Source of the DNA: Undaria pinnatifida
Taxonomy: Eukaryota; Sar; Phaeophyceae; Laminariales; Alariaceae
Assembly (NCBI GenBank): GCA_012845835.1
Contig: JABAKD010000025.1
Coordinates: 2,135,001 to 2,199,000 of the forward strand
DNA: 64,000 nt
Reading direction: 5' to 3'
Shown here: in pieces, positions 2,700-61,745 of the stretch
How positions within the stretch are numbered: position 1 is the stretch's first letter
Layout: every line of letters begins with the position of its first letter
Translations under genes and position numbers: made by a program
The notes under the pieces: model-generated
Seen by the model: the letters and a program-made list of their open reading frames with translations, nothing else
What the model was told of the DNA's origin: nothing
Databases searched by the model: none

Positions 2700-3690
2700 G
2701 GAAATACACTCCAGCTGTGAGATCGAAGATTTCGTCGAAACTCATCTTTGCAAGCTGTGTGTGATACTCCGATCGCGCGCATTACGAGTCGTGTGTCCTC
2801 CTTAAGGATATAGGTGGGCGACACCCCTTACAAACTACAGTGTAGCTATCAGGGTCAACAGGGTGATGTTAGTCAATCTGTGCGCGGAAACTATAAAACC
2901 TGTTTCTGAGGGGGACAACATCTAAAAGCTGTGGAGGGAAATGTAACCTTCGATCAAGTGAATCTTGTAAGTCGAATAACCGGTGAGGGGGGGGGCGGAG
3001 TTTTGAAGGACGTGGAGGCCTGGTTTTGATCAAAAGCGAGGGGGTTTGGAGGGGGGGGGAGGGGGGGGCAATTTGTGCATGTAAGATATAAATACTTTCA
3101 AGGGCATAAGTCTGACGTTTTTGGCACCAGTTTTTTTTTTGGGGGGGGGCGGGGGGGGGCGGGGGGGGGGGGGGCAGCTCCATATGTGCGTGGAAACTAT
3201 ACATTATTTTGAGGGGATAAATGTGGCGGTTTTGGAAATAATGCATCAGTTTATCATGTATATACAGGGGTAAGTCGTACAAGCAGTGAGTAGAGAGAGG
3301 GTGGAGTGTTCGAGGGGGTGGGGTTGGGATGGGTTGGGGGGGAGAAAGGGGGGGGGAGGTGGGGGGGGGGGGCGGGGGGGGGGGGCGGGGGGGGGCAGGG
3401 GGGGGGGGGGGAAGGAAGGGTTTTAGGTGAAGGGTTTGCTATACGTGTGGTGCCAGGTCTAGGCGATGGTGCGGGTGATGGGGAAGAAGGGGGCGTTCGG
3501 GGCGAGGGGGGCGGGGAAACAGCAGCGGCATGGATGGCTCTCGAAAGATAATGAGGTGATATCCTGTGCGTGAAGTGTTTATTAATCTGGCGGATTTCGA
3601 TATTTGGTGGGGCGTTTGAGTAAGGGAGAACGAGAGCGGGGGGGAGGGGGGGGGGGGATTTTTTAGCAGGTTCAGGTCACAAATAATATC
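2700..3690 (+). mobile_element. Modular G-tract repeat, single arm with modules S1-S6
   Basis: Defines the main repeat family. S1 (2703-2790) starts ACACTCCAGCTGTGAGATCG and ends near GATCGCGCGCATTACG. S2 carries ACAGTGTAGCTATCAGGGTC, TGTGCGCGGAAACTATAAAA, CTGACAGCTGTGG and GACGTGG, and ends in TTTTGATCAAAA plus a G-run. S3 occurs twice (about 3074 and 3182) and is a diverged copy of the second half of S2 (TGTGCGTGGAAACTATA ... GCATCAGTTTATCATG). S4 has TATACGTGTGGTGCCAGGTC. S5 has GCATGGATGGCTCTCGAAAG, TGTTTATTAATCTGGCGG and GTGGGGCGTTTGAG. S6 is AGGTTCAGGTCACA. G-runs of 8-20 separate the modules. No protein is encoded. Confidence 0.8.
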
Positions 3691-3884
3691 TAGTATTAGT
3701 ATTTCCCTCCCACCAGCTTAGTCTATACCGGTATCTTCTACCTCTCCATCGTGCTGTTCCTGTCCGTTCAGCAGCATTTTTTTTCTGCTTCGTTTTGTTT
3801 TGTCCGTGCAACAACGCAGCAGTTATCTTTTTCGTGTTGTTTTGCCCGTGCAACAACAGGTATTATCTGTTCCTCAACAGCACG

Positions 3885-4215
3885 TATGGTGTTCCTCTGG
3901 CAATTGAAGCCTTTCCTTTCCTTGTTCCTATCTTCTTGCGTCACACTCTTCAGAACACCTGACTTGCCGTTCATTTTTCTTCGTATCTCTGTATATTTTC
4001 CTTTTTTTTTTCTTTCCTTTTTCCCTGTTTTCCCTTTTTTTTATGAGTCTGGTTTGTTCTATTGTGTTCTCGTACCCAGTACGCTAGCACTTCACTTGCT
4101 CTACTTTTATGAATTGCGACTGTTTAGTTTTGTCTATTTTTTACAGTCACAGCCTTCTGTGACCACATAACTTGTATCTCTTTAGGATGAATCAGCACGG
4201 ACTCTGGGTGTACTT
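3885..4215 (+). repeat. Interspersed repeat 'G', copy 1
   Basis: Matches the reverse complement of 14440-14770 and the plus strand of 38570-38845. Landmarks are TTCCTCTGGCAATTGAAGCC, a GTACGCTAGCACT block, CTTCTGTGACCACATAA and a terminal ATCAGCACGGACTCTGGGTG. T-rich interior. The TGTGACCAC near the end is the signature shared with the SINE-like elements. The reading frame over it is not conserved between copies. Confidence 0.6.
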
Positions 4216-4244
4216 ATGTCGTGAGGTAGAAATACAGTTAGGGG

Positions 4245-4395
4245 GCCCTCTATAGTGCCGGTGCCCGGTATAGTGCCGGTAAAACCTCTGGACTCAGACA
4301 TCTCCCTCAATAGTGCCGGTCCGGCACTCATTGAGGGAGGCCCCGCTATAGTGCCGGTTAAGCGCCACGGCGCCCCGCAATATTGCCGGTTCACT
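4245..4395. repeat. Iterated ATAGTGCCGGT motif with a central palindrome
   Basis: ATAGTGCCGGT or one-mismatch forms occur five times within 150 bases (near 4252, 4267, 4314, 4348 and 4382). At 4307-4345 two arms, TCCCTCAATAGTGCCGG and CCGGCACTCATTGAGGGA, form a near-perfect hairpin. This looks like a cluster of binding sites or a transposon terminus next to the Harbinger remnant; which of these is inference. Confidence 0.55.
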
Positions 4396-4606
4396 ACACG
4401 GCCACACCAAGCAACACGGAAAGACCCGGTTCCGCGTCGCCGAGCCTGACTTGAAGGCTCTCATGGAGACTGTCAACACGTTGAGCACGAGCTTGCGCGA
4501 CGCGCAGAAGCAGGGATCCCGCATCATAGACGACAAGTCGAGCGAACTGTTGGCAAAAGTCGACATCGAACCCGGAAAGACGAACCCGGAAAGCCACTTG
4601 GCCTGA
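4352..4606 (+). CDS. Candidate terminal exon of an unknown protein
   Basis: An open frame from 4352 to a TGA at 4604-4606. From 4403 it reads HTKQHGKTRFRVAEPDLK, continues through an LSTSLRDAQKQGSR segment and ends NPESHLA. About four fifths of codons in this part end in G or C, against a mixed background, which is the best coding signal near here. It is hydrophilic and possibly helical, with no domain I recognise. There is no upstream ATG, so it would be a 3' exon. It runs towards the minus-strand Harbinger transposase, so it could be the second protein that PIF/Harbinger elements often carry, or a host exon. The opposite strand is also open, which lowers confidence. Confidence 0.35.
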   Translation, partial: CRLSATAPRNIAGSLHGHTKQHGKTRFRVAEPDLKALMETVNTLSTSLRDAQKQGSRIIDDKSSELLAKVDIEPGKTNPESHLA

Positions 4607-5332
4607 AGCACCCGTGTTTGCTTCGATGACACCTTTTTATTTTGTTACTTCGACACAACCGAACGGGAGAAACAGCAGTGGTATCGAACCTTCGCGCGGT
4701 CGTGGTCCCATGTCGTCACCTACAATCATAGCAACGATACATTTCAGCACACCGTAGCCGACGAAAGGACGATCAACCCACGGATTCGTGGGTGAACAAC
4801 AATACGTCTGTATCTGACTTATGCGACGGAGAACCCTATCCATCGACATTTTTTCTTATACGACAAACGAGGCCATGCATGATCTAACTACTACGGTAGC
4901 GGAGGAGTCTCTGCACCGTATGCACGAACCAAACGTATCCATACAACCCACACCTCATGAAACCGATTCCTGTCCGAAAGTAGCATGAGCAATGTCCCCA
5001 TCTATTGCCTTCTTTCAGGAGGGCTGTCTGCCCTCAACACGTGACTCTAAGAGAGCCTCAGGAAACGAAATATTTATAAGCCGCCCTACACCGCCCGATA
5101 CCGGCCCACCACCCACACCCACCCTGGTCGGGTGTCCACCAACAATAACTCAACTCCTACTAGTTGCAATATACACCTTATGTGGCAACGCCACGGGACA
5201 GAGTTGTTTGTTTTTTGTGCTATGAATCAACATTACTCGGAAACTAACGAGCATCGTCCGCCAATATCATCGTCAAAGTCCCAAATTGCTTCTGCGATAC
5301 TACCGATACAAGAAAATAGTAAATAAATACTC
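4607..5332. other. Gene-free stretch before the transposase
   Basis: About 700 bases without a frame that shows codon bias or a known motif. CACCCACACCCACCC-type sequence lies near 5110. The Harbinger transposase's 3' end and possibly the element's terminus lie in here, but I could not find a matching inverted repeat. Confidence 0.3.
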
Positions 5333-8374: not shown

Positions 8375-9554
8375 TTACCCCTCCAGCTTGGGAATGGGGT
8401 TAACTTGCCCCCAGTCTGTACCCTTCCCCGGCTGGATCCCGTTACCCATCTCCTCCTGGGCCATTGCATTTGCTACCCGGCTGGCATCCATCCCGTGGCT
8501 ACGAACGTTCGCCTTATAGGCATCAGACGCCCACCGGCCCTCCCGTTGCAACGTCTCTAGGGAGGCACCCCCTGCTGATAGGTGCGTTGCGCCCCCAATT
8601 CTAAGGGAGTGCAGCGCGTACTCATCCGCCCGCCCGCCCGCCAACGCGACCACTTCTCGCAGGGCTACCGTCGCTTGCTCCTTCGTCCACATGGACCATC
8701 TGCCACCAACACTGCCTTACGCCACGAGGGGAAGGACGAGGGAAAAGACAAATAACAAGACATCAACTCGAGCATAAGATCGAGAGCACCGCCACCGGCC
8801 ACTACGGGCCTCGGTGCAACCGCCCCAACGCGCGAAATGCCGCCCCTTTGCGCAACTGGTCGCCCTTAGACCCACAAAATCAAACCTCGACGCGGTCGGC
8901 TCTCGACCATTGTGCCACCCCCAACTGTACCCGACCGCGAAAGAAAGGCACGTCTGCCCGTCGTAAATAATACGTTTCGTGGATACGTGACCTGGTTTCC
9001 GCGAACATTTCGGACGCGCGGGTCAAAAAACAAAACGACGCACACAACGCAAGCCACAACACGCGCCCCCAGTTACGCCAAGAACGGTTCAAAGTTTCGC
9101 CAGCAAGCAACATAGCCCACGACACGGGCCGACGAACGGTCGCCTGACTACTCACTCCGTCATGCGGGCGCGCCGCACCTTTGAGGGCGCTCGCGATGAC
9201 GGAGTCAGTGGTGTCGAGCTCGAAACCGCGTGAAATGCGATGGAAAAACTTGATGGCCGACAAATGGCTTTCGATGGTCGCCGATCGCAGTTTCTTGGTG
9301 GCAAACGCGTACGCTACATATTCAAACAAATGCCACACGTTGTTCATATCGTCAATGACGCGATCAAGAAAAAAGGGAACACCAGAACGTACCCGAAAGT
9401 CTACCCATGCTCCAAAATGCCACAAATAAGCTCGTTCAGTCGAGGCCGCAACGGCGTGTCGCATGAGGCTCAGGTCAGCACCGAAGTACATAGGGAAATG
9501 CCCATGGTCCCCAGTTCCCGAACCTGCCACGGGATGTTGAGACGAACGGCGCAC
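8375..9554 (-). pseudogene. Tyrosine recombinase of the DIRS-like element
   Basis: It would join the circular cDNA to the target. The N-terminal part (9554-8880) has the SAM-like fold pattern (STERAYLWHFGAWVDF, SATIESHLSAIKFFHR) and the first catalytic Arg in FCFLTRASE. A stop near 8880 and further stops follow; a GSKGDQLRKGAAFRA block is still readable just after. The C-terminal part resumes in 8692-8375 with HSLRIGGATHLSAGG (His-x-x-Arg) and GRWASDAYKANVR. In related elements the residue three before the final Arg of this block is the nucleophilic Tyr; here it reads Asn (KANVR). The enzyme is split and probably lacks its nucleophile. Confidence 0.75.
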
Positions 9555-11452
9555 AAATTATCAAGAACGGAGCCGTGATCCCAGCGACAGATACCGTCGG
9601 CGGCAGCGTTGTGGATACCACGCGCATGCGTTGCCTCGAAATGCCATCCGGATGACACTTCGAGAACCCCAAGGAGACACATGAGGGCACCGGAACGCGG
9701 TTTCCAGCCCCTCCCGACATCGACGCACCCAATGCACGGCGGCCTTGTTGTCTCCTCGCAACAAAGCACAATCTCCCGTCGCTGACGGTCGATCGGCACA
9801 AGAAGACACTAGGACAAATGCCGACACAACCATGCCCAAACGTTCAAGCACGTTGATAGATAAGTCGTCCACGCCGCGAACGGACTTACTCGAGCCGCAA
9901 AACGTGACTGTTCCTGGGCTGAGGTCATAGCGCCAGTCACCACCGGTTTCGAGACAACATCGCCTGACGGCGGTTCTGGACAAGTCCGAGAACAACGTAC
10001 GTTGTGCCGGGCGCTCCAGCAAAGGATACATCGGTGCCGACAGCACCCCGCGGCGCGCATCAAGACGTTTGTCAACAAACCACTGCCATAACTCGAGATC
10101 CGCATGGACGTCGGGCCCAAGGGCATCACGCCGCCCCGGATTGGCCATTCGAACAGCGAAGTGATCACCGGCAGCGATGCGCGGCATCCCAACCAAAGCC
10201 AACAAACGATGCACGAAAAAAGACCCGGAACGAACGGCGAAAGAGATGTGCATGAGGAAACCCGCCAGCTGCGACACCTCATAGGTGCGGCAGTCGGGGG
10301 CCACTCCACTAAAAGCAATCGCAGCTTGAGGCGATTATGTGGCGGCGCCGTCACCGTAAACGCCGCTGTGTCCACCCACCAGCCCAGCACGTCGAGACGC
10401 GTGTTCCAGTTAGTGATTTTGCTGGCGGACAACAGAGGAGGGTCGGACGCGCCACGTACGCCCAACACGCGAAAGTGATCCGACGCCAACGACTGCACAG
10501 CCCGCATACAGCGACGACCGTCCGGCCACCACTGAACCTGGACAAGAATGCACGGAAAAACGACTCCCGGCGTAGCCGCCGCCACCGGAAACGGTTCGAA
10601 AATGCGAGGGAGAGACGTAACCGAACCCCCACGCTGCGCGGCAAGACGCACATGTTCGACGGCAGCCGCCCCTTGCGGGGAAACAGCCGCATCTTCAAAC
10701 GTAGGGTGGGTGTGGGAATGTTCCAGCGCAGAAGCCATCAGCCCCCAGAACCTGGGACTATTACGCCACCCGAATTGTAAGCGAAGATCCACAACTACGT
10801 ATTCGCCCATCACGAACCCAAACACCGGCGCCCCTACCGGGTCAAGTAAGACTTGACGAAAGGCGTCTTTCCCGTCAACGCGGCAAAGGACGATTCTAGC
10901 TGAGGGACCGAGCAACTGCCGCAAAAACAACACCCGTAAAAAACACACCCCGGAACACATTGCCGAGCTCGCAGGACGGGGCGGAGAAAAAATCGGTATC
11001 GTCGTTAACGCTGAAATGGCCGCCCGCGCGCGCAAACGTGAGATAGTGAATGATGGGAAACTTAGGCTAGAGCACGACGGCCAACGGCGAAACACGTAAA
11101 CCCGGAATATCGGACGCGGAACATAATTTAAACACCAAAGCCCGACCATGAACCTCGTCAGCACAAAAATCGTTTGGTTAACAGCAACGGCATGGGGGGC
11201 GACGCTCGGGTGGTTACCGTATGCAAGCTCAACAGTCAGATTACCCCCCCGCGCAACACACACCGGGGAAGCCGGTGCCAAAACGCGGAGCAACTGGTCA
11301 ACACGAGGAAAGTTCTTGACGGTACCAAACCAATGACGAACGATGTGAGAACTAATAAGTGGGGCGATCCGAGCCGATCCGGCAGCAGACGTAAACAATT
11401 TAACATTGCCGGGGCAGGCACGCAAAAGAGACGACCCCGCGCTGGCAACCAC
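9470..11452 (-). pseudogene. Reverse transcriptase and RNase H of the DIRS-like element
   Basis: RT blocks: SSHIVRHWFGTVKNFPRVDQ (N-terminal), then in another frame PKFPIIHYLTFA and HFSVNDDTDFF (about 11080-10960), then RVDGKDAFRQVLLDPVGAP and LRLQFGWRNSPRFWGLMA (about 10890-10750), then VQWWPDGRRCMRAVQSL. The YxDD box expected just before VQWW is absent: the sequence runs TPGVVFPCILVQVQWW, as if a few codons were deleted. RNase H follows in a new frame (10304-9561): TLFSDLSR (Asp), INVLERLGM (Glu), LLRGDNKAAVHWV (Asp), and ATHARGIHNAAADG in yet another frame (9799-9470). There are at least three frame changes and one stop, so no active protein. Confidence 0.8.
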
Positions 11453-11500
11453 ATCGAGATTCGCGGAACCTGTTAACGATACCGACCGCGTTACCCTATC

Positions 11501-12028
11501 CTACGCGGCGCGCCACCCCTCAACCACCGAATCCAACTGCGTGTGCGCGCGCTCGCCGTCGGTCGAGCCGTGTCCGCACCCCCAGTAAAATTCCGAACGT
11601 CGAACACGTTCGCTATGGGTAACTGCATCTCCGCGCGCGACCGATAATCCAATTCCTACAATGCGCGCCGAGACTAACGTACACGCACGCGCGCGCTCCC
11701 CATGGCCACCTCTATTCCCGAAAATGACGGACCCCGGAGCAACGGGTACACGCTCGCGCCCAACGCCGCCTTCGCCCGCCTGCGCCTCCAACGCGCGCCC
11801 CCGCAACCCGCCCGTGACCCCGCGGACTGCCGGTACGGTCGGCATGCCGCCAACGTCGACCGTCGACGCAGCTCCTCCATCAACCGCCAACGCCGCAGCC
11901 GCACCCCCGGAGGTTGGACCCAACACGCGGCCGCCAATCTTAATTGTTGACGCAGCCGCTACATCCACCGCCGGCGCCGCAGCTGCCACCGCAAAGGTTG
12001 GCTCCACCTGGCGGCAGGGCCCGTGTCT
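11501..12028 (-). pseudogene. Ala/Gly-rich segment between Gag-like and RT frames
   Basis: A minus-strand open stretch (about 168 codons) rich in Ala, Gly, Val and Arg and lacking a known domain. Several overlapping frames are open because of high GC. By position it is the C-terminal part of the Gag-like protein or the N-terminal extension of the polyprotein. The frame ends just before the RT start, so a frameshift or separate translation is needed to join them. Confidence 0.35.
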
Positions 12029-13387
12029 TCATCCAGAACCAGAACCAGCGCCTCTACCCCCCTCGGCCCCCTGTTCCCGCCCGCGGGGAGGACCGCACGC
12101 AGCGACAACGCCCGCGACCCTCCTCCTTGCCGCCACCACGCTTCCACCGCCTTCCCCCCTGCGAGCGGGTGGAGATGGCGAGGACGTTGAGGCCGCGGGG
12201 GCCTCGTGCAGGAACTTACACGGAAACCAGTTGTGTTCACTGGTGCGCGCGAACATCCGACAGGCCTGGGGGAGACTTGAATTGGCCTTTCCCTTGGACC
12301 CGGGCGACCCAGCGGGGGAAGCGATAGTATTACGCTTGGTGGGCCTGTCTCCGCCGGAACCGATGCTGCTGATTACGAGCCGGAGCACTTGCCCCCCGAC
12401 GCGGCAAAATTCTAGAGTGCGCACGAAAGTGGGTATGGGTGGAGGGTCGAACACCGTGCCAGGTGGGGGAGGGACAACAACGGGGGAAGACCGCTGCAGA
12501 GCACGCATGAGCTCACTCACCCACAAAGCGATGTCGCGGTTGACCATATCGCACAGCACTGCATGCGCGTCCGGGACGGACAGCATACTGTAGTTGCTGA
12601 AGGTGTGCCCCCGCAAGCCCATGACCGCCACCGTAAACGCGTCGCCAAGGGCGTTGACCCGCGCCAGACAGGAGACATCGTGGGCGACCCCAGGCGAGAG
12701 ACAGAAAGAATCGCAACGACGGCCAATTTCGAGAGGTCGAGACGGTCGGCGACCATGAGGAAGTGCCCGATGGGCCCGTCCAAGCGGGTCCCAGCCCCGA
12801 CGTCAAAGAAACTGAAGGACCGAAGCTGGGACGCGACGTTGGCTGTCACGTGGATAGCCTCCCCCACAAATGACTGGAGGTCAGCGGGAGAGTCCTCGAG
12901 GTTCGGGGGGATACGCCCTCGAATAATCCACAGCTTCCTAGCTGTGTTGACCTTGTTCAAAATGGTCGTTTCGGTGGCAAGTTTTGCTTTTTGGCGCTGC
13001 CATTCCTGAGCATCGCCGTCGTCCCGGGAGGCTACCCGACCAGAGTTGTTCTCCACGAACTGTCGAACGATGATGTCGAGATTAGCTACCTGATCAGCGC
13101 AGGCAGCCGCTACCTCGCCGGAGGAAGAAGCGGTTGCCGATAAGTCGGCAATTTTTTCGTCAAGGCGCTTATGGACCCGCGCGAATTCGGCTTCAACCTG
13201 TCGGGCCCACGTGGCACAGTAATCCAAGGCAAGGCCGCACCGATCGCTGGCGCCCGGAGGAGGACCCCGAGCCCACAAGAGCTGCGGCGGCCCGGACACG
13301 CAGAGTAGCCTCCGCCTCAGCTCTGGCGGCCGCAGGCGCCGCGGCACCCGGCCAGTCTATCACACCTTGGACCTGTCTCGCTGACAA
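12029..13387 (-). pseudogene. Gag-like protein of the DIRS-like element
   Basis: First protein of the element. A frame starting at 13387 (MSARQVQGVIDWPG) shifts near 13250 into the main frame (13347-12517), which has a coiled-coil-like helix (QVEAEFARVHKRLDEKIADL), LWIIRGRIPPNLED and GPIGHFLMVADRLDLSKL. Near 12697 it shifts again: AILSVS continues as PGVAHDVSCLARVNALGDAF in the frame of 12631-12029, followed by LRGHTFSNYSML and a short NWFPCKFLHEAP block. The long overlapping frame on the plus strand is a GC-rich shadow. Assignment as Gag rests on position, since DIRS Gag proteins are poorly conserved. Confidence 0.55.
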
Positions 13388-14834: not shown

Positions 14835-15275
14835 ATGTTCCCTCCACCCCCCCCACAAGAAGGATATAGAGTTTCCACGCACAAGTTGAGCTGCCCCCCC
14901 TGTCCCTCCCCCCCTTCCCCCCTCCCGCCCCCCTTTCGATCAAAATCAGCCCCCCACGCCTATAAAAACTCCGCTCTCCCCTCACCGGTTATTCGACTTA
15001 GAGGAATCACTTCGTAAACTGATGCATTTTCTTCCACAGCTGTCAGATTTTGTCCCCCTCAGAAACGGGTTTTATAGTTTTCGCACACAGACCGCTTAAC
15101 ACCACCCGGTTGGCCCTGATAGCTACACTGTAGTTGCAAGGGGAGTCGCCGACCTCCCTTATTGAGGACACACACCCGTGATACACGCGATCGTGGAGTA
15201 TCACACACAGCTTGAAAAAAAGAGTTTCGACAAAATCTTCGATCTCACAGCTGGAGTGTATTTATATTTGTATAA
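14835..15275 (-). mobile_element. Modular G-tract repeat, partial arm S3-S2-S1
   Basis: Inverted orientation: C-runs, then the end of S2 (CTCACCGGTTATTCGACTTA), ACAGCTGTCAGATTTTGTCC, GACCCTGATAGCTACACTGT, and S1 ending CACAGCTGGAGTGTATTTA. The outer modules S4-S6 are missing, so it is truncated. It lies head-to-head with the next complete copy. Confidence 0.75.
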
Positions 15276-15284
15276 TATAATACG

Positions 15285-15360
15285 CACGATTAGAGTAACA
15301 CGCACAAGCTTGCAAAGATGAGTTCCGACCAAATCTTCGATCTAACAGCTGGAGTGTATT
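15285..15360 (-). repeat. Extra S1 module between two heads
   Basis: An isolated S1 (CAAGCTTGCAAAGATGAG ... ACAGCTGGAGTGTATTTTA), inverted, wedged between the heads of the copies on either side. With the plus-strand S1 at 15375 it forms a short AT-loop hairpin. Confidence 0.7.
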
Positions 15361-15374
15361 TTATGTTATCAAAA

Positions 15375-16310
15375 ATGAAAATACACTCCAGCTGTGAGAT
15401 CGAAGATTTGGTCGAAACTCATATTTGCAAGCTGTGTGTGATACCCCGATCGCGCGTGTTACGAGTTGTGTGTCCTTATTAAGGATATGGGTCGGCGACT
15501 CCCCTTACAACTACAGTGTAGCTATCAGGGTCAACAGGGTGATTTTAGTCAGTCTGTGCGCGGAAACTATAAAACCCTTTTCTGAGGGGGACAAAATCTG
15601 ACAGCTATGGAGGGAAATGTATCCTTTTATCAAGTGAATCTTGTAAGTCGAATAACCGGTGAGGGAGGGGGGGGGGGGGGATTTTGAAGGACGTAGGGGC
15701 CTGGTTTTGATCAAAAGCGAGCGGGTTTGGAGGGAGGGAGGGGGGGGGAAAGGGGGGGCAATTTGTGCATGTAAGCTATAAAATCTTTCAAGGGGATAAA
15801 TCTGACGGTTTAGGAGGAAAAAAAAATGCACCAGTTTATTATTGGGGGGGGGGGGGGGGGGTTGGGGCAGGGGGGGGGTCGTGTGGGGCAGCTCAGTATG
15901 TGCGTGGAAACTATACATTATTTTGAGGGGATAAATGTGACGGTTTTGGAAGTAATGCATCAGTTTATCATGTATATCCTGGGGTAAGTCGTACGATCAG
16001 TGAGTAGAGAGAGGGTGGAGTGTTTGAGAGGGTGCGGTTGGGATGGGTTGGGGGGGGGTGGGGCCGGGGGGGGCGGGGGGGGAGGGGGCGAAGGAAGGGT
16101 TTTAGGTGAAGGGTTTGTTATACGTGTGGTGCTAGGTCTAGGCGATAGTGCTGGTGATGGGGAAGAAGGGGGCGGTCGGGGCGGGGGGGGGGGGGGAAGC
16201 AGCGGCATGGATGGCTCTCGAAAGATAATAAGGTGATATCCTGTGCGTGAAGTGTTTATTAATGTGGCGGATTTCGATATTTGGTGGGGCGTTTGAGCAA
16301 GGGAGAGCGA

Positions 16311-16346
<36 letters not shown>

Positions 16347-18745
16347 GAGGAGGTTAAGGTCACAAAAAAATTTCAAATACACTTCGGCTGTGAGATCAAT
16401 GATATGTAGGGGCTTGTTATACGCGTGGTGCTAGGTCTAGGCGATCGTGCGGGTGGTTGGAAAAGAGGGGGCGTTGGAGGGGGGGAGGGGTGGGAAGAAA
16501 AAGATTTGAAAACTACGTCATGGATGGTGAGAAAGGTAATGACGTGATATCAACTGCGTATAGGTGTTTATTCCTCTGGCCGATATCGATTGTGAGTGGG
16601 GCGTTTAGACAAACTAGGCGGAAGGGGGGGGTTTGGGGGACGGGACGGGGGGGGGGGGGGGGGGAAGGGTTGGGGTTTTTTATGAACAAGAGGGGTCAGG
16701 GGAGGGGGAGGGGAGGGGGCGGGGGGCGGGGGGCGGGACATTTCAATATGTGCGCGGAAACTATAAATCCTCAAAGGGAACAAACCTGACGATTGAAGCA
16801 ATAAGACATCCCTTTATATCATCTGGCTTGTGATGTTTACTATTCTAGAAGGTTTGATGTTCGATGCAGCATGCAACCCAGTGTTTACGTGTAGTAAATA
16901 TTGTGTTAAATATTCATAAATTGTTGTTGTGTGATACATGGATCGAAAGCTAGAATTTTTTATAGAACATTTGTAGTTACCATTATTTTCTGACATCGCT
17001 AACTATAAGAAAGAGATACGTATTGTCATAATACAACAGGCGAGGTGATGTGGTCATGCACTGTTTGTCACCGCCATCATACATTTACCAATATGTTCTG
17101 ACATCGCTAATTATACGAAAGAGATACGTATTGCTAAATACAGCATGCGAGGTGATTTATAATTATCATACAGATTAAAATACGCTCCAGCTACGAGATC
17201 GAAGATTTGGTCGAAACTCGTATTTGCAAGCTTGTGTGTCATACTCCGATCGCGCGTATTACGCATATATGTACGGGCTTGCTATACGCGTGTTGCTGGG
17301 TCTAGGCGATCGTGCCGGTGGTGGCGAAGGAGGGGGCGTTGGGGGGGCGGGGGCGGTGGGACAGAATGAAAAGTACGTCATGGATGGTTAGAAAGATAAT
17401 GACGTGATATCAACTGCGTATAGAGGTGTTTATTACTCTGGCCGATTTCGATTGTAGGTGGGGCGTTTGAACAAAAGGGTGGGGAGAAGCTTCATTATTT
17501 GCGCGAAAACTATGAACCCTTAATTAAAGGCGACAAATCTGACGTTGTAGCAAGAAGACATCACTTTGTATCACCTGCCTTGGTATTGTTTTTTATTTCA
17601 AGCGATTTTACGTGTTAGATTCCTAGAAAGATAATGAGGTGATGTGAGTCGGCTGGTAGTGTTTACTACTCTGGCAGATTTTGTTTTTGGGTGGGGCGTT
17701 TAAACAAGAGGGATCCGGTGGGGGCGGGGGCGGGCGGGACACTTCCATATGTGCGCGGAAAGTACTACTCCTTAACGGGGACAAAATCTGACGGTTGTAA
17801 CAAGAAGGCATCCCTACATATCACCTGCCTGGTATTGCTTATTATTCTAGAAGATTTGATGTTAGATGTGGTATGTAACACAATCTTTATACTATATGTG
17901 ACCTAAACCTGTTGAAAACCCTCCCCCCCCCCCCCCCCCTCACCTTTGTTTTTCTTTTTCTCGCTTCCTCTCGCTCAAACGCCCCACCTAACATCGAAAT
18001 CTACTAGAGTAATAAACACTTCTACGCACTTGATATGTGTCTTTCTAGAGCCATCCATGCCGCTGCTTCAATTCACCCCCCCCCCCCCCCCCCCCCAACG
18101 ACCCCTTCTTCCCCACCACCCGCACAATCGCCTAGACCTACCACCACGCGTATAGCAAACCTCTACATCTATGCGACCTAGAGTTGTTAAAAAACCCTTT
18201 CGCCCCCCCCCCCCCATGCGCCCCTCCCCCCCCCCCCCCCGACCCTCTCGAACCTCCGCCTTCTCCTCACTGGTTGTAGGACTTACAGGATATACGTGAT
18301 AAACTGATACTTTCCATCCGACACCGTATAGTGTATCCCCTTAAAGGATTTATAGTTTCCACGCACATATTGAGCTGCCCCGCCCGTCCGGTCCGCCCCC
18401 CCCGCGCTCCCTTTTGCTCCAACCCAGGCCCCCACGTCCTTTAAAGCTCCATTCTCCCCTCACCGGTTATTCGACTTACAGGATTTACTTGATAAAGTGA
18501 TGCAGTTCCTTCCACAGCTGTCAGATTTTGTCCCCCTTGAAAACGGGTTTTATAGTTTCCGCGCACAGACTGACTAAAATCATCCTGTTGACCCTGATAG
18601 CTACACTGTAGCTGTAAGGGGAGTCGCCGACCTATATCCTTAATGAGGACACACAACTCGTAATACGCGCGATCGGGGTATCACACACAGCTTGCAAAGA
18701 CGAGTTTCGACATAATCCTCGATCTCACAGTGAGAGTGTATATTT
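15375..18745. mobile_element. Complete fold-back element of the modular G-tract family
   Basis: Left arm (15375-16375): S1, S2, S3 twice, S4, S5, S6 on the plus strand with G-runs. Centre (16376-17905): repeated S4/S5/S3-like blocks and a tail with GAGGTGATGTGGTC. Right arm (17906-18745): S6, S5, S4, S3, S2, S1 in inverted order with C-runs, ending in an S1 at 18740. The arms mirror each other in module order over about 0.8-1 kb. Outer ends lie in AT-rich sequence. No open frame in the centre resembles a transposase, so it is non-autonomous. Confidence 0.75.
16376..17905 (+). repeat. Centre of the fold-back: reiterated internal modules
   Basis: Contains an S1-like start twice (16378 and 17172), S4 twice (GGTGCTAGGTCTAGGCGATC near 16430 and a variant near 17290), S5 three times (GTGTTTATT...CTCTGGC) and three S3-like blocks (TGTGCGCGGAAACTATAAA at 16749; variants near 17500 and 17750) that end in ATCACCTGCCTGGTATTG-like sequence and TTATTCTAGAAG. 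So the interior arose by local duplication of arm modules. The tail block at 16990-17160 is itself a diverged doublet. Confidence 0.65.
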
Positions 18746-18789
18746 TTTATAAATATTTGTCTAATTCGTGCTGAAGAGAAACAGATACA

Positions 18790-19130: not shown

Positions 19131-19384
19131 GGAATTGTGCGGTGGCTTACTCTGGAGCGTTAGTTTCATTGCTGTACTTTACTAGGTCGTTTGGTTTCTT
19201 GCTCGGCCTTTATTGTTTTTGTTTCTGCTCGTTTTGCCAGTTGGAAATTCATTTTTTTAGTGTATGGGTTCACCGAAAACGTGACACAAATTACCGACAA
19301 TATCCCACAACTTCGCGACACAGATTACCGACGGCAAGACGATTCGTGACAAAACAACTTCCATATCATGGTATTTTCACGTAA

Positions 19385-20765
19385 CAGAATCTCGAGACAA
19401 AACCAAGCAGGTAGAAGAGCCGTCTTTTCGACCTTTGGCCCTGGCTTCAGCACAGCCGCTGACACTCCAGGCCGCCTCTGCTGTAGGCATGAACGAGTGC
19501 GGTTGATTCGCAGCGAACTATCCCGCTGTGCTCGCTTCTACGTGGCCATTGTCCATGCCATTTCATGTCACCTTCTTTCTGTTTTGAGCTCGTCGTCGTA
19601 CGGTTGAGGTACGAGGAAACCCGTACGTACTGGGTGAGAAGGGCAGAATGTACGACGAGCATGAACGCCAACTGACGACATTGGCAAACACGCAACATCA
19701 GGTGTAGCAGCAGTAGCGGAAGGGCAAAACTTCTAGCACATACTGCAGCAACTAGTAGCAACCAGAACCACAGCAGATAGCTCAAAGTGCAGTACGAGTG
19801 CCGTTGGCAAGTTCAGTCGTACACGCATCACTCTGTCCAATATCATATAGCAGAATCTCGAGACAAAACCAAGCAGGTAGAAGAGCCGTCTCTTCGGCCT
19901 TTGGCCCTGGCTTTAGCACGGCCGCTGACACTTCAGGCAGCCTCTGCTGTAGGTATGAACGAGTGCGGTTAATTCGCAACGAACTATCACGCTGTGCTCG
20001 CTTCTATGTGGCCATTGTCCATGACATTTCATGTCACCTCCCTTCTGTTTGGAGTTCGTCGTCGTACGGTTGAGGTAGGAGGAAACCCGTGCGTACTGGG
20101 TGAGAACAGCAGTATGTACGACGAGCATGTACGCCAACTGACGACATTGACAAACACGCAACATCAGGTGTACCAGCAGTAGCGGAAGGGCAAAACTTCT
20201 AGCACATACTGCAGCAACTAGTAGCAACCAGAACCACAGCAGATAGCTCAAAGTGCAGTACGAGTGCCGTTGGCAAGTTCAGTCGTACACGCATCACTCT
20301 GTCCAATATAGTATAGCAGAATTTCGAGACAAAACCAAGCAGGTAGAGTCGTCTCTTCGGCCTTTGGCCCTGGCCGCTGACACTCCAGGCAGCCTCTGCT
20401 GTAGGCATGAACGAGTGTGCTTGATTCGCAGCGAACTATCCCGCTGTGCTCGCTTCTATGTGGCCATTGTCCATGCCATTTCATGTCACCTTCTTTCTGT
20501 TTTGAGCTCGTCGTCGTACGGGTGAGGTACGAGGAAACCCGTGCGTACTGGGTGAGAACAGCAGTATGTACGACGAGCATGAACGCTAACTGACGACATT
20601 GACAAACACACAACATCAGGTGTAGCAGCAGTAGCGGAAGGGCAAAACTTCTAGCACATACTGCAGCAACTAGTAGCAACCAGAACCACAGCAGATAGCT
20701 CAAAGTGCAGCACGAGTGCCGTTGACAAGTTTAGTCGTACACGCATCACTCTGTCCAATATATAA
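19385..20765. repeat. Three tandem units of about 466 bp
   Basis: Units start at 19385, 19851 and 20317 with CAGAATCTCGAGACAAAACC (one change in unit 3) and end CATCACTCTGTCCAATAT. Unit 3 is shorter by about 14 bases because of small deletions near 20350. Each unit keeps a minus-strand frame starting MSYLLWFWLLLVAAVC, signal-peptide-like. However, most differences between units change the amino acid, so there is no sign of selection on a protein. It is read as a locus-specific satellite. Confidence 0.85.
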
Positions 20766-23640: not shown

Positions 23641-23751
23641 TGCAAAGTAAATATTTTTATTACTACCAGCAAATAATATGTCAGTCTCTAGGAAATACGG
23701 ACGGCACTATCAACAGTCGTCATGGTGGAGACACTCCAGATATTATTATAA

Positions 23752-24292
23752 AAAATGAAAATGCACTCCAGCTGTGAGATCGAAGGTTTCGTCGAAACTC
23801 ATCTTTGCAAGCTGTGTGTGATACTCCGATCGCGCGTATTACGAGTTGTGTGTCCTCATTAAGGATATAGGTCGGCGGCTCCCCTTGCAACTACAGTGTA
23901 GCTATCAGGGTCAACAGGGTGATTTTAGTTCTAGTCTGTGCGCGGAAACTATAAAACCCGTTTCTGAGGGGGACAAAGTCTGCCAGCAGCTGTGGAGGGA
24001 AGTGTATCCTTTTATCAAGTGAATCCCGTAAGTCGAATAACCGGTGAGGGTGGGGCGGAGTTTTGAAGGACGTGGGGGCCTGGTTTTGATCAAAAACGAG
24101 CGGGGTTGGAGAGAGGAGGGGGGGGGGGGACAGGGGAGGCGGGGGGGCGGACGGGCGGGCAATTTGTGCATGTAAGCTAAAAATCCTTTCAAGGGGATAA
24201 ATCTGACGGTTTTGGAAGAAGAAAAAAAAAAAAAAAAAATTGCACCAGTTTATCATCGGGGGGGGGGGGGGGGGGGGGGGGGGGGGCGAGGG
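23752..24292 (+). mobile_element. Modular G-tract repeat, arm S1-S2-S3
   Basis: S1 at 23757 (GCACTCCAGCTGTGAGATCG), S2 to TTTTGATCAAAA at 24087, one S3 (24165-24255, ending in an A-run and ATTGCACCAGTTTATCATC), then a G-run of over 30 at 24258-24290 where similarity stops. The break falls exactly in the G-tract. Confidence 0.75.
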
Positions 24293-25260: not shown

Positions 25261-25424
25261 ATTGCACGGAAACGACTAAAAAACTAGACATCAGATATAT
25301 GTAAAATTCAGTATGCATGAAAACACTATGTGTTATAGTGTGAGTCAGCTGTTGGAATGGGCCACTCGAGTCTACCGGGTTCGTACGCAAGTTCCTGTTG
25401 TATTCCCTGTAATATATATTGTAA

Positions 25425-25892
25425 AATGAAGTTACACTCTTCTAGCTGTGAGATCGAAGATTTTGTCGAAACTCATCTTTGCACGCTGTGTGTGATACTC
25501 CGATCGCGCGCATTACGAGTTGTGTGTCCTCATCAAGGATATAGGTCGGCGACTCCCCTTGCAACTACAGTGTAGCCATCAGGGTCAACAGGGCGATGTT
25601 AGTCAGTCTGTGCGCGGAAACTATAAAACCCGTTTCTGAGGGGGACAAAATCTGATAGCTGTGGAAGGAGATGTATCCGTTCATCAAGTGAATCCTGTAA
25701 GTCGAATAACCGGTGAGGGGAGGGCGGAGTTTCGAAGGACGTGGGGCCTGGTTTTGATCAAAAGGGATCGGGGATGGAGGAGGGGGGAAAGGCGGGGGGG
25801 GGACGGGGGCGGCGGCGGACGGTCGGGCAATTTGTGCGTGAAAGCCTATATATCCTTGAGGGGATGAATCTAACGGTTTTGGAAAAAATAAA
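25425..25892 (+). mobile_element. Modular G-tract repeat, arm S1-S2-S3
   Basis: S1 at 25434 has a small duplication (ACTCTTCTAGCTGTGAGATC). S2 and a short S3 follow (ATTTGTGCGTGAAAGC ... GGTTTTGG). It passes directly into repeat H. Confidence 0.7.
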
Positions 25893-30040: not shown

Positions 30041-30044
30041 TATA

Positions 30045-43345: not shown

Positions 43346-43489
43346 CGACTTTTTTTTTTTTCACTCACTCCAGCGTATGTTTTGTGCTTTTCGCTTTACG
43401 TAGCCAAAATCGTATTAATCGTGGGAGAGGGGACCCTCATATGAAGCCAAATTTTTCTTCGAAGATTACATATTACCAGGTATAACAAA

Positions 43490-43880
43490 TTAAAATACAC
43501 TCCAGGTGTGAGATCGAATATTTTGTCGAAACTCAATCTTTGCAAGCTGTGTGTGATACCCCGATCGTGCGTATTACGGGTTGTGTGTCCTCATTAAGGA
43601 TAGAGGTCGGCGACTCCCCTTGGAACGACAGTGTAGCTATCAGGGTCAACAGGATGATGTTGGTCAGTCTGTGCGCAGAAACGATGAAACCAGTTTCTGA
43701 GGGGGGAAAAATCTGACAGCTGTGGAAGGAAATGTATCAGTTTATGAAGTGAATCCTGTAGTCGAATAACCGGCGAGGGGAGGGCGGACTTTTTAAGGGT
43801 GTGGGGCCCTGATTTTGATCAAAAGGGGGGCGGGAGGGGGGGAAGGGGGGAGAAAGACGGGGCAGCTCAATTGTGCGAAA
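43490..43880 (+). mobile_element. Modular G-tract repeat, arm S1-S2
   Basis: S1 at 43497 (ACACTCCAGGTGTGAGATCG), S2 to TTTTGATCAAAAGGGGGGCG, ending in G-runs and an AATTGTGCGAAAC remnant of S3. A TACCAGGTA site lies at 43474-43482, just outside its head. Confidence 0.7.
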
Positions 43881-44194: not shown

Positions 44195-44750
44195 CTTGAT
44201 GTAGGCTTCCCGGGGAACGACCCCTCGCTATTTTCAATTTTCAGGCACGGGCGTCATAGCTGCGCTGCAACCTGTCAGATAACTCGGGAAGACGGGGCGA
44301 CCGTTGGTTTTTGGTCCGATTGCTCTTGTTTCACTGCATGCCCGCGGGTCATCACTCGGACAGCATCTTCAGACAGCAGGCGCGTTCGTCTGTGCTCACG
44401 TTTTTTTCCGTGTGGTTCGTACGGTGTAGGCAGCCCAACACCGCTGTTGTTTGTAGCCGCGAGTTGGTTAGTTGTGGGAACGGCGGAACTCTATGCTGTA
44501 GTTGAGTGGATACCCGCGGCCATGTGAGTTCAGTTTCCGCATGGGATCATTTCGCTCGTGCGCCTTTTTTGTGTCGTGCGTTTCAGCCGGAAAGAAAGCG
44601 TACGAAGTATTTCCCGGACGAAATTTGATTTCATTTGTTTTTCGGATCTCCCGATTAAAATAAGGCTCCAGCACCTTCGTGTGACCACAGACTCTAGATT
44701 TTTGACAGAAGAAAAAAGTGTGTGAGACGGCAACAATGACAACATACGAG
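44195..44750 (+). mobile_element. SINE-like 'A', long copy
   Basis: Includes the far 5' part also seen at 28060-28160 (TTTCAGGCACGGGCGTCATA), the AGACAGCAGGCGCGTTCGTC block, GATACCCGCGGCCATGTGAG, CGTGTGACCACAGACTCTAG and a decayed CAA-like tail. Confidence 0.7.
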
Positions 44751-45714: not shown

Positions 45715-46075
45715 TTACATAAAACCCCCTCTCGCCCCCCTTTTGATCGAAATCAGGCCCCCACGTCCTTAAAACCTCCGCCCTCCCCTCGCCAGTTATT
45801 CGACTTAGAGGATTCACTTGATAAACTGATGCATTTCCTTCCACACACAGCTGTTAGATTTCGTCCCCCTCAGAAACCGGTTTCGTTGTTTCCGCGCACA
45901 GACTGACTAACATCACCATGTTGACCCTGATAGCTACACTGTAGTTGTAAGGGGAGTCGCCGACCTATATCCTTAATGAGGACACACAACCCGTAATACG
46001 CGCGATCGGAGCATCACACACAGCTTGCAAAGATGAGTTTCGACAAAATATTCGATCTCACAGCTGGCGTGTTTC
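45715..46075 (-). mobile_element. Modular G-tract repeat, arm S2-S1
   Basis: From C-runs and CCCCTTTTGATCGAAATCAG through GACCCTGATAGCTACACTGT to S1 at 46070 (CTCACAGCTGGCGTGTTTC). Head-to-head with the next copy across about 20 AT-rich bases. Confidence 0.75.
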
Positions 46076-46089
46076 TTCATTTTATATTA

Positions 46090-46320
46090 TGAAAAAAGCA
46101 CTCCAGCTGCGAGATCGGAGGCCTTTGCCGAATCTCATCTTTGCAAGATGTGTGTGATACTCCGATCGCCGGTGTTACGGGTTGTGTGTCCTCATTAGGG
46201 ATATACGTCGGCGGCTCCCCTTGGAACTACAGCGTAGCTTATCTGGGTCAACAGGGTGATGTTAGGCAGTCTGTGCGCGGAAACTATAAGACGCGTTTTC
46301 TTACTGGGACAAAATATTAT
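46090..46320 (+). mobile_element. Modular G-tract repeat, arm S1-S2, cut short
   Basis: S1 (GCACTCCAGCTGCGAGATCG) and S2 to GACGCGTTTTCTTACTGGGAC, then AT-rich TATTATAAAAATTATAAT starts the next copy, exactly as at 30040. Confidence 0.7.
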
Positions 46321-46324
46321 AAAA

Positions 46325-47060
46325 ATTATAATACACTCCAGCTGTGAGATCAAATATTTTGTCGAAATTCATCTTTGAAAGCTGTGTGTGATACTCCGAT
46401 CGCGCGTATTACGGGTTGTGTGTCCTCATTAAGGATACAGGTCGACGACTCCCCTTTCAACTACAGTGTAGGTATCAGGGTCAGCAGGGTGACGTTAGTC
46501 AGTCTGTGCGCGGAAACTAAAAAACCCGTTTCTGAGGGGGACAAAATCTGACAGCAGTGGAAGGAAATGCATCAGTTTATGAAGTGAATCCTGTAAGTCG
46601 AATATCTGGTGAGCGGAGGGTGGAGTTTCGAAGGACGTGGGGGCCTGATTTGGATCAAAAGGGGGCCGTGAGGGGGGGAGGGGGGACAGGGGACGGTTGG
46701 GGGGGTTCAATTTGTGCGTGGAAACTATTTATCCTTCTTGCGAGGGAGGGGGGGGGAATGTGGCGGGGGGGGCGGGCGAGGAGGGGAGGTCTTTCGGTCG
46801 CATAGATGTAGGGGTTTGCTATACGCGTGGTGCTAGGTCTAGGGGATGGTGCGTGTGGTGGGGAAGGAGGGGGCGTTGGGGGCGGGGGTTGGTGGAAATT
46901 GCAGCAGCGGCATGGACGCTCTCTAAAGGTAACGAAGCGATATCCAGGGCGTGGCAAGTGTTTTTTACTCTGGCGGATTTCAGTACTAGGTGGGGCGTTT
47001 AAGCGAGAGAAAGCGAGGAAAAAGGATTAAATGGGGCGGGGGGGGAGGGGGTTGCAATTT
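46325..47060 (+). mobile_element. Modular G-tract repeat, arm S1-S5
   Basis: S1 at 46331, S2 to GGATCAAAAGGGGG, S3 remnant (TTTGTGCGTGGAAACTATTT), S4 (46798-46890), S5 (46905-47005) and a G-rich end at 47040. This is the tidiest single arm after 2700-3690. Confidence 0.75.
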
Positions 47061-54185: not shown

Positions 54186-54465
54186 CGTTGTTGTTGTTGT
54201 TTCTCACATTAACTCTTGTAAAAAAGCTAGAGTCCGTGGTCACACAAAGGTGCTTGAGCCCTAGGAAGATCCGAAAAACCAAGTGAAATCAAAATTCGTC
54301 AGGGAAATACTACGCTTTCCCGCCTAAAAACGCACGGTACGGAAAAAGGCGCACAAGTGAAAAGGTCAAATGCGCGAACTGAACTCACATGGCCGCGGGT
54401 ATCCACCCAACTACAGCATAGAGTTTCCCCGTCCCCACCACTACCCAACTCGCGGCTAAAACGTA
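54186..54465 (-). mobile_element. SINE-like 'A', 5'-truncated copy
   Basis: (GTT)n, CTCACATTAACTCTTG, GAGTCCGTGGTCACACAAAG, AAACGCACGGTACGGAAAAA, CATGGCCGCGGGTATCCACC; stops at CAACTCGCGGCTAAAACG. Confidence 0.7.
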
Positions 54466-54980: not shown

Positions 54981-55034
54981 ATTTGTTTATATAATCATTA
55001 TTTTTCATGTTGATTATTTTATTAAAAAAATATC

Positions 55035-55830
55035 AAATACACTCTATCTAGCTGTGAGATCGAATATTTTGTCGAAACTCTTCTTCGCAAGCTGTGTGTC
55101 ATACTCCGATCGCGCGTATTACGGGTTGCATGGGTTGTGTGTCCTCATTATGAAGGATATAGGTCGGCGACTCCCCTTGCAACTACAGAGTAGCTATCAG
55201 GGTCAACAGGATGATGTTGGGCGGTCTGTGCGCAGAAAGTATAAAACCCGTTTCTGAGGGGGACGAAATCTAACAGCTGTGGAAAGAAACGCATCAGTTT
55301 ATCAAGTGAATCCTGTAAGTCGAATAACCGGTGCGGGGAGGGCGGAGTTTTGAAGGACGTGGGGGCCTGATTTTGATCAAAAGGGGGGAAGGGACAGTTA
55401 GTTGGGGCAGGTCAATTTGTGCGTGGAAACGGTATAACCTTCTTGTGGGGGAGGCGAGTGAATGTGGGGGGCGGGCGGGCGGGGCGGGGGGGAAGATCTT
55501 TAAGTCGCGTAGATGTAGGGGTTTGTCATACGCGTGGTGCTAGGTCTAGGCGATAGTTCGGGTGGTGGGGAAGGAGGGGGCGTTGGGAGCGGGGGAGGGT
55601 GGGAATAGCAGCAGCGGCATGGACGGCTCTTAAACGATAATGAGGTGATATCCAGGGCGTGGAAGTGTTTATTTCTCAGGCGGATTTCGATATTGGGTGG
55701 GGCGTTTGAGGACGGGAAAGTGAGGAAAAAAAAGGGGGGGGGGGTGAGGGTTTTCAAGAGGTTTAGGTCACATAAAGTATTAAAGTACACTCCAGCTATG
55801 AGATCAATGATAACTATGTAGTGGCTTGCC
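55035..55830 (+). mobile_element. Modular G-tract repeat, arm S1-S6
   Basis: S1 has a small internal duplication (ACACTCTATCTAGCTGTGAG). S2 to TTTTGATCAAAAGGGGGG, short S3, S4 (55505-55590), S5 (55615-55710), S6 (GAGGTTTAGGTCACATAAAG) and the start of a second S1-like block (TACACTCCAGCTATGAGATC), then cut. Confidence 0.75.
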
Positions 55831-59345: not shown

Positions 59346-59461
59346 TGTCTATTTCTTGCTTTTCTTGTCTTTTTCTTTTCTTTCCTTTCCTTTTTCCTTT
59401 TGTTTCGCTTTTCTCTCTTTTCTTTCTTTTCATGTATCTTCTTTTTTTCTCTTTATTTTCT

Positions 59462-59820
59462 TCTCTCCAATTGACTGCGTCTGTCGTGCGTATGCGTAGT
59501 GAGAATACGACTACGTGTAATATATACTTAGTACGTGGTAGACTTTTTTGGGTGGCAAGCGGTATAGTCGGTTTCTTCAGGCGTGAGCAATGAGACGTAT
59601 GCACCGGTATGGGCCTGGCACATCGTGGACTGACTCCCGAAATCATTCTTATATGTTTCTGGTGGAGGCATGAATTGCGTCAGCTGTGATTTATGCGTGT
59701 ACCACCTTTGGTTTGTTTGTGTTTTTCTGTGGGGTATTCCTCAGCTCCAGAGTGACTGGAGTCTGTCCTGTGACGGCGGACTTGATTCTTCGAGTTAATG
59801 TGAGAACAGCAACAACAACA
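59462..59820 (+). mobile_element. SINE-like 'B', full-length copy
   Basis: Starts GACTGCGTCTGTCGTGCGTA after a CAATT, with the same body as 21172-21528, ending GTCTGTCCTGTGACGGCGGA, TTCGAGTTAATGTGAGAACA and CAA repeats. The signature is changed to TGTGACGGC here. Confidence 0.75.
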
Positions 59821-60270
59821 GACCTTCGTTCCACTTGGTAAGGCATGCTGCGAGGCATGCCTTAGCAAGCTTGTACATAGCGAGGGGGCGGGGCGGGGTT
59901 CTGGCGGGTGTAAGGCCGGACTCACCCTCAAGGAGTGATACCTTCTTGCTGCTGCGTGTGGCCGCGAGACCTGGGAGTGGCGGTAGAGCTGGGTCGCACA
60001 TGGTGCGTTAGGCATGGTCACATAAGATTCGCGCGTCTTTCTAAGCAACAGCGGCGGAGCAGCAATGCTCAATCGGGATGCTCGTTTGCGGAGGCAGGTG
60101 CCACCACGAGCCACACTACGGCGCAGTCTTGGTTGGAGTGGAGGGAACTGCGCCGGCTGGAGGCTGGATTCGACGACGAAGGAAGAGGGCGGTTGAGCGT
60201 CGACGGGCGGGGAAGACACGGATTGAATTCTCCCTGAACGATAAATTTTGTTTTTCATATCAGAACCGCA
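59821..60270. other. Unassigned GC-rich stretch
   Basis: Frames are open on both strands, with Arg-rich peptides and no known motif. AGGCATGCTGCGAGGCATGC is a short direct repeat at 59842. Confidence 0.3.
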
Positions 60271-60274
60271 AGCT

Positions 60275-61745
60275 GCGGGCGGAGTGTTCGAGAGGGGTGA
60301 GGGTGGGGTGGGGGTGTGGAGGAGTGGGGGGGAGATGGGGGGGAGGGGGGCGAAAGGGCTTTAGGTCGCATAGAAGCAGGGGTTCGCTATACGCGTGGTG
60401 CTAGGTCTGGGCGATGGTGCGGTTGGTGGGGAAGGAGGGGGCGTTCGGGGCGGGGGTGGGTGGGAATTGCGGTAGCGGCATGGATGGCTCTAGAAAGATA
60501 TTGAGGTGATATCCGGTGCGTGGAAGTGTTTATTACTGTGGCGGATTTCGATATTAGATGGGGCGTTTGAGCAAGAGAGAGCGGGAAAGGGGGGGGAGGG
60601 CGAGGGGAGGATTTTCAAGAGGTTTAGGTCACATAGGATATGAAAAAACACTCCACCTGTGAGAAAAAAATTGGTCGAAACTCATATTTGCAAGATTGTG
60701 TTGTGATACTCCGATCGCGCGTATTAATCACATATGTAGGAGCTTGCTATACGCGTGGCGCTAGGTCTATGCGATCGTGCGGGTGGTGGGGAAGGAGGGG
60801 GCGTTGGAGGGGGGGGGGGGGATTACTGAAAGCTACGTCATGGATGGATAGAAAGATAAGGACGTGTTATCAATTGCGTAGAAGTGATTATTACTCTGGC
60901 CGATTTCAACTGTAAGTGGGGCGTTTGAACAAACTGGGCGGGAAAAAAAACGGAGGCGGGGTAGGGGGGGGGGGGGGGGGTGGGAGGGCGGAAATAAGTT
61001 GGAGCTACGTACTTCGTTAGTTATACTTCGCTTGGCATACGTTGGGAGGCGATCATTCAGACGGTAAGAACGAAATACCCTACGCAATAGGTTGGTAGTG
61101 TGGTTTGCCGCAATTCCAACATATCTGCCTGTATTTCCTTTTCACATTATCGTTGTCATGGTCCAATTTCTGGGAAATCTCTATGATGTTTCGAAAATAC
61201 TTTCAAAGACATTTTTAATTATCGACTTATAGCTGAAGTTATAAAAACAAAAAACGCGAAAAAAACGTCGACTATGTAGCCCACTGACAAGAACAAGCTA
61301 GTCGATTCGTTTGGGACAGTATGTGTAGCTAACCATCCCGCTGGGAATTCATATCGAAACACGACCCCTCCCCCCCCCCCCCCCCCTCTCCCCCGCTCCC
61401 TCTTGTTCAAACCCAGCCCCCCACGCCCTTAAAAACTCCGCCCTCCCCTCACCGGTTATACGACTTATCGGATACACTTGATAATCTGATGCATTTCCTT
61501 CCACACACATCTGACAGATTTTGTCCCCCTCAAGAACGTGTTTTAAAGTTTCCGCGCAGAGACTGACTAACATCACCCTGTTGACCCTTGTACAATCTAC
61601 ACTGTACTATAGTTCCAAGCGGAGTCGCCGACCTTTGTAATAAATGAGGACACACCCAGTAATACGCGCGATCGGAGTATCAAACACAGCTTGCAAAGAT
61701 GAGTTTCGACAAAATATTCGATCTCACAGCTGGTGAAGTGTTTTT
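60275..61745. mobile_element. Fold-back copy lacking the left head
   Basis: Begins inside S3 (GGAGTGTTCGAGAGGGGTGA), then S4 (60360-60450), S5 (60478-60565), S6, an S1-like start at 60648, S4 and S5 variants, the tail block also found at 31.7 kb (GGCATACGTTGGGAGGCGAT), a unique link (61150-61365), then inverted S2 and S1 ending at 61735. The right arm (61366-61745) is intact but short. Confidence 0.65.

Follow-up and report, generated by a model that had tools for sequence, protein, structure and literature searches.

A 5-kb repeat family of Undaria pinnatifida without long open reading frames, probably mobilised by a LINE-type enzyme

A 64,000-nucleotide stretch of the genome of the brown alga Undaria pinnatifida (assembly GCA_012845835.1, contig JABAKD010000025.1, positions 2,135,001 to 2,199,000 of the forward strand; hereafter the window, 64 kb out of a 511-Mb assembly of 68 contigs) carries many copies of a repeat built from modules named S1 to S6 and punctuated by long runs of G, and raises the question of what kind of element spreads in this form. 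Self-comparison reveals one dominant family, spanning positions 2687-61761 as 16 S1 heads (a head being an alignment that reaches at least position 225 of 250) and further partial segments, and family-like segments occupy 14,847 of the 64,000 bases (~23%). This agrees with the original prediction, made from the letters of the window, of a single family with a shared module order. That prediction had also held that no named element class has this layout, which is too strong: elements mobilised by a long interspersed nuclear element (LINE) have just this layout, with one constant end, one ragged end and short duplications of the target, here seen on the antisense strand. The family, very abundant in the genome, is most probably a non-autonomous, LINE-mobilised retroelement with a unit of ~5 kb that lacks an open reading frame (ORF) and has been read on its antisense strand. 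Beyond the earlier description, S1 proves to be the fixed end, young copies carry target duplications, the ~5 kb unit reaches far past S6, and successive units follow one another head to tail.

Copy ends and target duplications

The flanking sequences show that the copies all start at the same point, TATAAAAATTAAAATACACTCCAGC, which is the start of S1. In 20 genomic loci anchored on S1 (L009-L028), mutual similarity stops abruptly ahead of S1, and collinear sequence continues past it for 579-2157 bp, reaching at least 700 bp in 16 of the 20 loci, at least 1000 bp in nine, at least 1600 bp in five and at least 2000 bp in three. These lengths are BLAST ends against L012, itself among the longest copies, and nested copies break up two of the loci (L023 and L025); as best matches to one S1 query, the 20 loci are also biased to young, head-bearing copies. 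The class feature of one end fixed and the other truncated at many points is present. Several copies end 207-285 bp from S1, near the edge of the conserved S1 domain (29801-30038 and 46093-46315 in the window; L018:5098-5349 and L024:7005-7262), and such stops may mark a preferred stop of the reverse transcriptase (RT).

Target-site duplications (TSDs) were sought in 32 copies, among them 12 of the window and 16 anchored loci (L009, L012, L023 and L025, with complex or the longest ends, were omitted), by matching the 14 bases ahead of each element to those surrounding its ragged end, with flanks swapped in from other copies as control. The mean best match was 5.0 for a copy's own flanks versus 3.8 for swapped flanks, with none of 601 permutations equally good; a score of at least 5 was reached by 15 of the 32 copies against 23% of swapped pairs, and a score of at least 7 by nine against 3.4%. 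The duplications are short, mostly 5-9 bp, and the signal is carried by the young loci (12 of the 16 anchored copies score at least 5). Matched flanks include ATCTTTAT in L010, GGCATATAT in L013, ATACATAT in L014, TTTATAT in L016 and CGCATAT in L021, and mostly end in ..TAT immediately ahead of TATAAAAA. The nested copy in L023 has AATATTA at both sides. Over the 32 copies, TSDs around truncated copies are thus present, with the 16 young loci, rather than the 12 window copies, as the source of the signal. In retroelements without long terminal repeats (LTRs), such short duplications beside truncated copies are a mark of target-primed reverse transcription, and they therefore suggest that the RNA ends 3' at the S1 end, and that the strand carrying the modules forward (the S strand) corresponds to first-strand cDNA.

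The complete unit and its G-tracts

A walk outward from S1 yielded 5183, 2129, 911 and 165 first-look candidates in turn (a rough proxy, the queries being different), and showed that family sequence continues well past the original modules to an end ...CTCTGAGCGCTTGATATA. Of the first six loci found to reach this far end, five (L040-L044, with L037 the exception) continue at once into another S1. A 40-base pattern of the junction has 57 matches (27 + 30) at up to 3 mismatches, its reversed control none, and the junction is present, at the same tolerance, in 20 of 40 scored far-end matches. Since full-length ends abut S1 this often, as against just two of the 32 ends in the TSD test, we infer that the source transcripts span several units. 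A miniature or large LTR derivative (a terminal-repeat retrotransposon in miniature, TRIM, or large retrotransposon derivative, LARD) would have two LTRs within a duplication of fixed length; here the far end does abut S1 in half of the scored matches, but the 20 anchored copies are ragged.

One complete unit, bounded by two junctions (L049), measures 5,217 bp. It contains no stop-to-stop frame above 126 codons, and ten of its longer frames gave no Pfam match, so that, as judged from this one unit and the ten frames scanned, the unit has no RT or other long ORF. Identity to a young copy is 94% over its first 250 bp, and to L037 and L040 ~94-95% over its last 250 bp, against 69-79% across subfamilies in between; constraint on the two ends is one reading of this pattern, and exchange between subfamilies another. 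Within the same unit, 282-376 is repeated at 417-512 (75% identity) and 690-1191 at 972-1488 (87%), the latter in particular bearing out the earlier proposal that the arm grew by internal duplication.

The head-to-tail order invites comparison with Penelope-like elements and retrozymes, which form tandem units and truncated copies. On that alternative the units would arise from concatemeric or circular RNA, the junction block being a pseudo-LTR with a ribozyme, and it accommodates the fixed junction, the conservation of sequence on both sides of it, and the occurrence of partly truncated tandem copies with short target duplications. Against it, Rfam returned no match, so that the repeated end shows neither a hammerhead nor any other ribozyme, either in the window at gathering level or in L044:450-1000 at E values up to 5. 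The two Rfam matches in L037:2300-4765 (E 0.09 and 0.22) lie far below their gathering scores, and neither is a ribozyme. An origin of this kind is unlikely, although no search was aimed at a Penelope-type RT, and it is the best placed of the alternatives to LINE mobilisation.

The G-tracts are a striking feature of the unit. The window holds 62 runs of at least 8 G or C, versus ~1.5 per window in a mononucleotide shuffle. All 42 such runs assigned to forward copies are G and all nine assigned to inverted copies are C, so that 51 of 51 obey the strand of their copy, although two of the 42 (58783 and 58805) probably belong to a LINE 3' region and were assigned merely via a G-rich alignment; outside the family there are 11 runs, five of G and six of C. 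L049 likewise has 30 runs of at least 6 G and none of C. The strand lock of the original prediction is thereby borne out, yet tells little by itself, since copies inherit the runs along with their remaining sequence. The variation in run length seen earlier at module joints also recurs: at one homologous joint the run varies from 5 to 32 G (26 matches from the window and the fetched loci; longest C stretch 2), as counted with loose anchors, after a first listed joint had been discarded for spurious matches, and as read from assembly sequence, in which errors are possible. In L049, only two zones have an excess of G, 251-1600 (skew 0.64) and 4201-4960 (skew 0.52); G and C are close to balance at the two ends and in the 2.6-kb middle (skew 0.08, -0.03 and 0.10).

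The claim that copies tend to end inside a G-run fared differently. Just four of 31 ends fall at a run of at least 5 G, compared with 20% of reference positions 250-1300 (a background derived from a single reference copy), so the ends are not enriched in G-runs; all four lie in the window (four of its 12 ends, against none of 19 in the fetched loci). Among the three examples originally named, the copy ending at 24292 does stop in a G-run, whereas the copy reported near 27300 extends to 27468 and that reported near 43860 to 43877, both outside any G-run. Module order, strand-locked tracts and growth by duplication thus stand, and the tracts as copy ends do not. As the ends show no such enrichment, the G-runs seem to be inherited as internal parts of changing length, rather than to be places at which copies break off.

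Another explanation would make the G-tracts scars of the RT itself: untemplated G would be added to the cDNA (the S strand) at the end of a template, followed by a template jump, each run would mark a module joint, and the element would be a template-jumping concatemer, with two conserved terminal domains recruiting the enzyme. This explanation is improbable.

Inverted pairs, nests and the proposed mechanism

Oppositely oriented S1 arms occur in six of the 20 anchored loci (L013, L014, L017, L023, L024 and L025) and in the window (15363/18756 and 30038/32889). Foldback elements are modular and form inverted pairs, and these arms suggested a Foldback-like DNA transposon, whose long, modular terminal inverted repeats would end outward in S1, with decayed or partial copies surviving as single arms. 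The flanks and the TSD test speak against this. Arms that stand alone have matched flanks of their own where they end raggedly; the bases outside paired S1 ends, inspected by eye, are without a clear shared duplication, some being too AT-rich to judge; and the inverted arm in L023 and L025 is a nested insertion. The same sequence inverted at both ends within one target duplication was thus found neither by eye nor in the TSD test, and an origin from inverted-repeat transposition is very doubtful. The weakest alternative is a rolling-circle element, such as a Helitron, in which one end is fixed and termination varies; it would account for the fixed end, the variable other end and the head-to-tail units, but Helitrons have TC...CTRR ends and no target duplication, whereas this family begins with TATAAAAATT at its S1 end and has matched flanks at truncated copies, so that it can hardly be entertained.

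Short interspersed nuclear elements (SINEs) are non-coding, LINE-mobilised and flanked by short target duplications, all of which the present family would share. It is far longer, and no credible match to an RNA polymerase III promoter or to a tRNA-, 5S- or 7SL-derived head was found with Rfam and ARAGORN, L037 being the locus in which tRNAs were sought and none found.

Further S1 copies lie against, or within, other copies. Some stand directly ahead of another S1 start (29801-30038 and 46093-46315 in the window; L024), others head to head with one (15278-15363; L017), and those in L023 and L025 occupy an internal site that is S1-like and TA-rich, the two sites lying within ~10 bp of each other. 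Such nests are expected if TA-rich targets are preferred, the element's own end included.

For the favoured LINE-mobilised retroelement, the following course may be proposed. The RNA would be the reverse complement of the S strand, with the S1 domain (...GGAGTGTATTTTAATTTTTATAATA) at its 3' end, and an RT made elsewhere would recognise that domain. A nicked target strand, usually ending in ..TAT, would prime copying from the RNA 3' end, making the S strand the first-strand cDNA, and most copies would stop early, leaving the ragged, 5'-truncated copies. The source loci are probably head-to-tail arrays, such that a copy passing the end of a unit would often continue into the next. The element's own TA-rich end would be a favoured target, and the nests, both head-to-head and S1-S1, would result from this. 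As for the G-tracts, which would be C-tracts in the RNA, they would belong to an internal block grown by duplication, their length changing probably by slippage, and would have no part in the integration mechanism.

The partner on which this course depends was sought among the 3526 first-look RT candidates of the genome, of which 150 were scored. Seven RT loci were sampled, six with readable 3' regions reaching the tail and one (L052) mostly N. The six belong to LINEs of two families, one tailed with (CA)n and the other with (CAA)n. The window itself contains a broken LINE with RVT_1 similarity (57191 to ~59820, + strand), the 3' part of which is 84-87% identical to the (CAA)n-tailed family, a family that includes a copy of ~1267 codons at C38. 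A scan of 328,797 bases (the window and the loci) with an RT motif gave a single match; the pattern was strict, and missed the window's own RT.

Several results weigh against LINE mobilisation. None of the six readable LINE 3' regions has similarity to S1, so that an autonomous partner was not found in the two families sampled. A conserved RNA structure in S1 is unsupported by 53 copies on either strand, both-sided pair changes numbering three of 33 in the antisense orientation and none of 44 in the other, with covariation terms of 0.21 and -0.23. The 12 older window copies, taken alone, show no TSD excess (two of 12 score at least 5, control 23%), and the nested copy in L025 has no evident duplication. 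The flank matches are short and AT-rich, and some, for example in L013, may in part reflect microhomology to the module itself. Finally, no twin-priming inversion was seen; an apparent 5' inversion in L013 was dropped, the inverted piece being 73% identical to the reference versus 95% for the adjoining part, and hence an older insertion.

Window copies, known relatives and implications

The copies in the window vary widely in length and completeness. The first (2687-3686, +) has an S1 head and modules, is rich in G-runs, and reads in the forward, probable cDNA orientation. A cluster follows, in which a truncated copy (14839-15280, -) stands head to head with the next, a partial S1 head (15278-15363, -) is wedged between the two, an older-type copy, long or else composite, occupies 15363-17882 (+) and contains a 32-G run at 16313-16344, and a truncated copy with C-runs on the + strand closes the group (17883-18756, -). 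Next come a copy ending at a 29-G run (23744-24292, +), a truncated copy with the matched flank TATATAT (25412-25853, +) and another that ends outside any G-run (26919-27468, +). A short S1-only copy with the matched flank AAATATAT (29801-30038, +) abuts the S1 start of the longest collinear copy of the window (30038-32190, +; reference 1-2032 and beyond), beyond which lie truncated copies at 32199-32889 (-), 33810-34562 (+) and 43476-43877 (+), the last of these with its end outside any G-run. A truncated copy at 45725-46091 (-) is head to head with a short S1-only copy (46093-46315, +), itself immediately ahead of the S1 of a truncated copy (46314-47051, +), the first 367 bases of which were the first genome query. 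The remainder are a truncated copy at 55018-55784 (+), headless internal modules at 60297-61157 (+; reference 426-1097 and 1649-1801), and a truncated copy with a 17-C run close to its end (61359-61761, -).

Other sequences of the window include long overlapping frames at 8880-13347 (-) with 57-60% GC, above the rest of the window, and no significant Pfam match, which we take to resemble a tyrosine-recombinase (DIRS-like) retroelement; a ~460-bp unit repeated in tandem about three times, at 93% identity (19382-20762); and another dispersed repeat of ~270-500 bp at 82-95% identity (27623-28151, 35124-35543, 44212-44744 and 54187-54461). Elsewhere in the genome, a long degenerate trinucleotide array (AGT/AGC-type) occupies L036 2280-3200, ~90 bp past the end of a family copy. 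The EsV-1-7 domain (PF19114), typical of brown algae, shows a very large expansion, with 2169 first-look candidates, of which 150 were scored and all lay above the cut-off, and no matches in any of 14 control genomes; together with the LINEs of the window, it is a sign of a brown alga.

No paper on the family was found in the literature, in searches that would miss an element described under an unknown name. The closest known systems are the LINE-dependent non-autonomous families of Ectocarpus. Parts of the published account describe Ectocarpus LINEs as often 5' truncated, its abundant non-autonomous families as thought to rely on LINEs, and its most abundant single family as a ~600-bp non-autonomous element sharing its 3' end with RTE-X LINEs (PMC12477816). 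That element, RTEX-N1_Ec32, resembles the present family as a brown-alga repeat of top abundance, with thousands of copies and a thought reliance on LINEs; compared by description, it differs in being ~600 bp long with a 3' end shared with RTE-X, whereas the family here has a ~5 kb unit, head-to-tail order and a block of G-tract modules (PMC12477816, in part). For giant kelp, a passage of the genome report gives a repeat content of 57.6% (PMC10498591). Short internally deleted elements (SIDEs) derived from R2 and R1, for which template jumps are one proposed origin, are likewise non-autonomous and keep conserved 5' and 3' parts, but, in the part of the source that describes them, they are site-specific for rDNA and carry a hepatitis delta virus-like ribozyme at the 5' end (PMC3414825), and no ribozyme was detected in the present family.

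The surprising features of the family are its length, its head-to-tail units with conserved ends, and its one-sided G-tracts. If the LINE-mobilised reading is true, a very common repeat of this alga would be a 5-kb retroelement without an ORF but with two short ends kept conserved, and would serve as a natural experiment on the template requirements of a LINE-type enzyme. The G-tract block would then document, in nature, how homopolymers change in a lineage that passes through reverse transcription, and the head-to-tail source units would make it a question what sets the limits of a single unit in the RNA.

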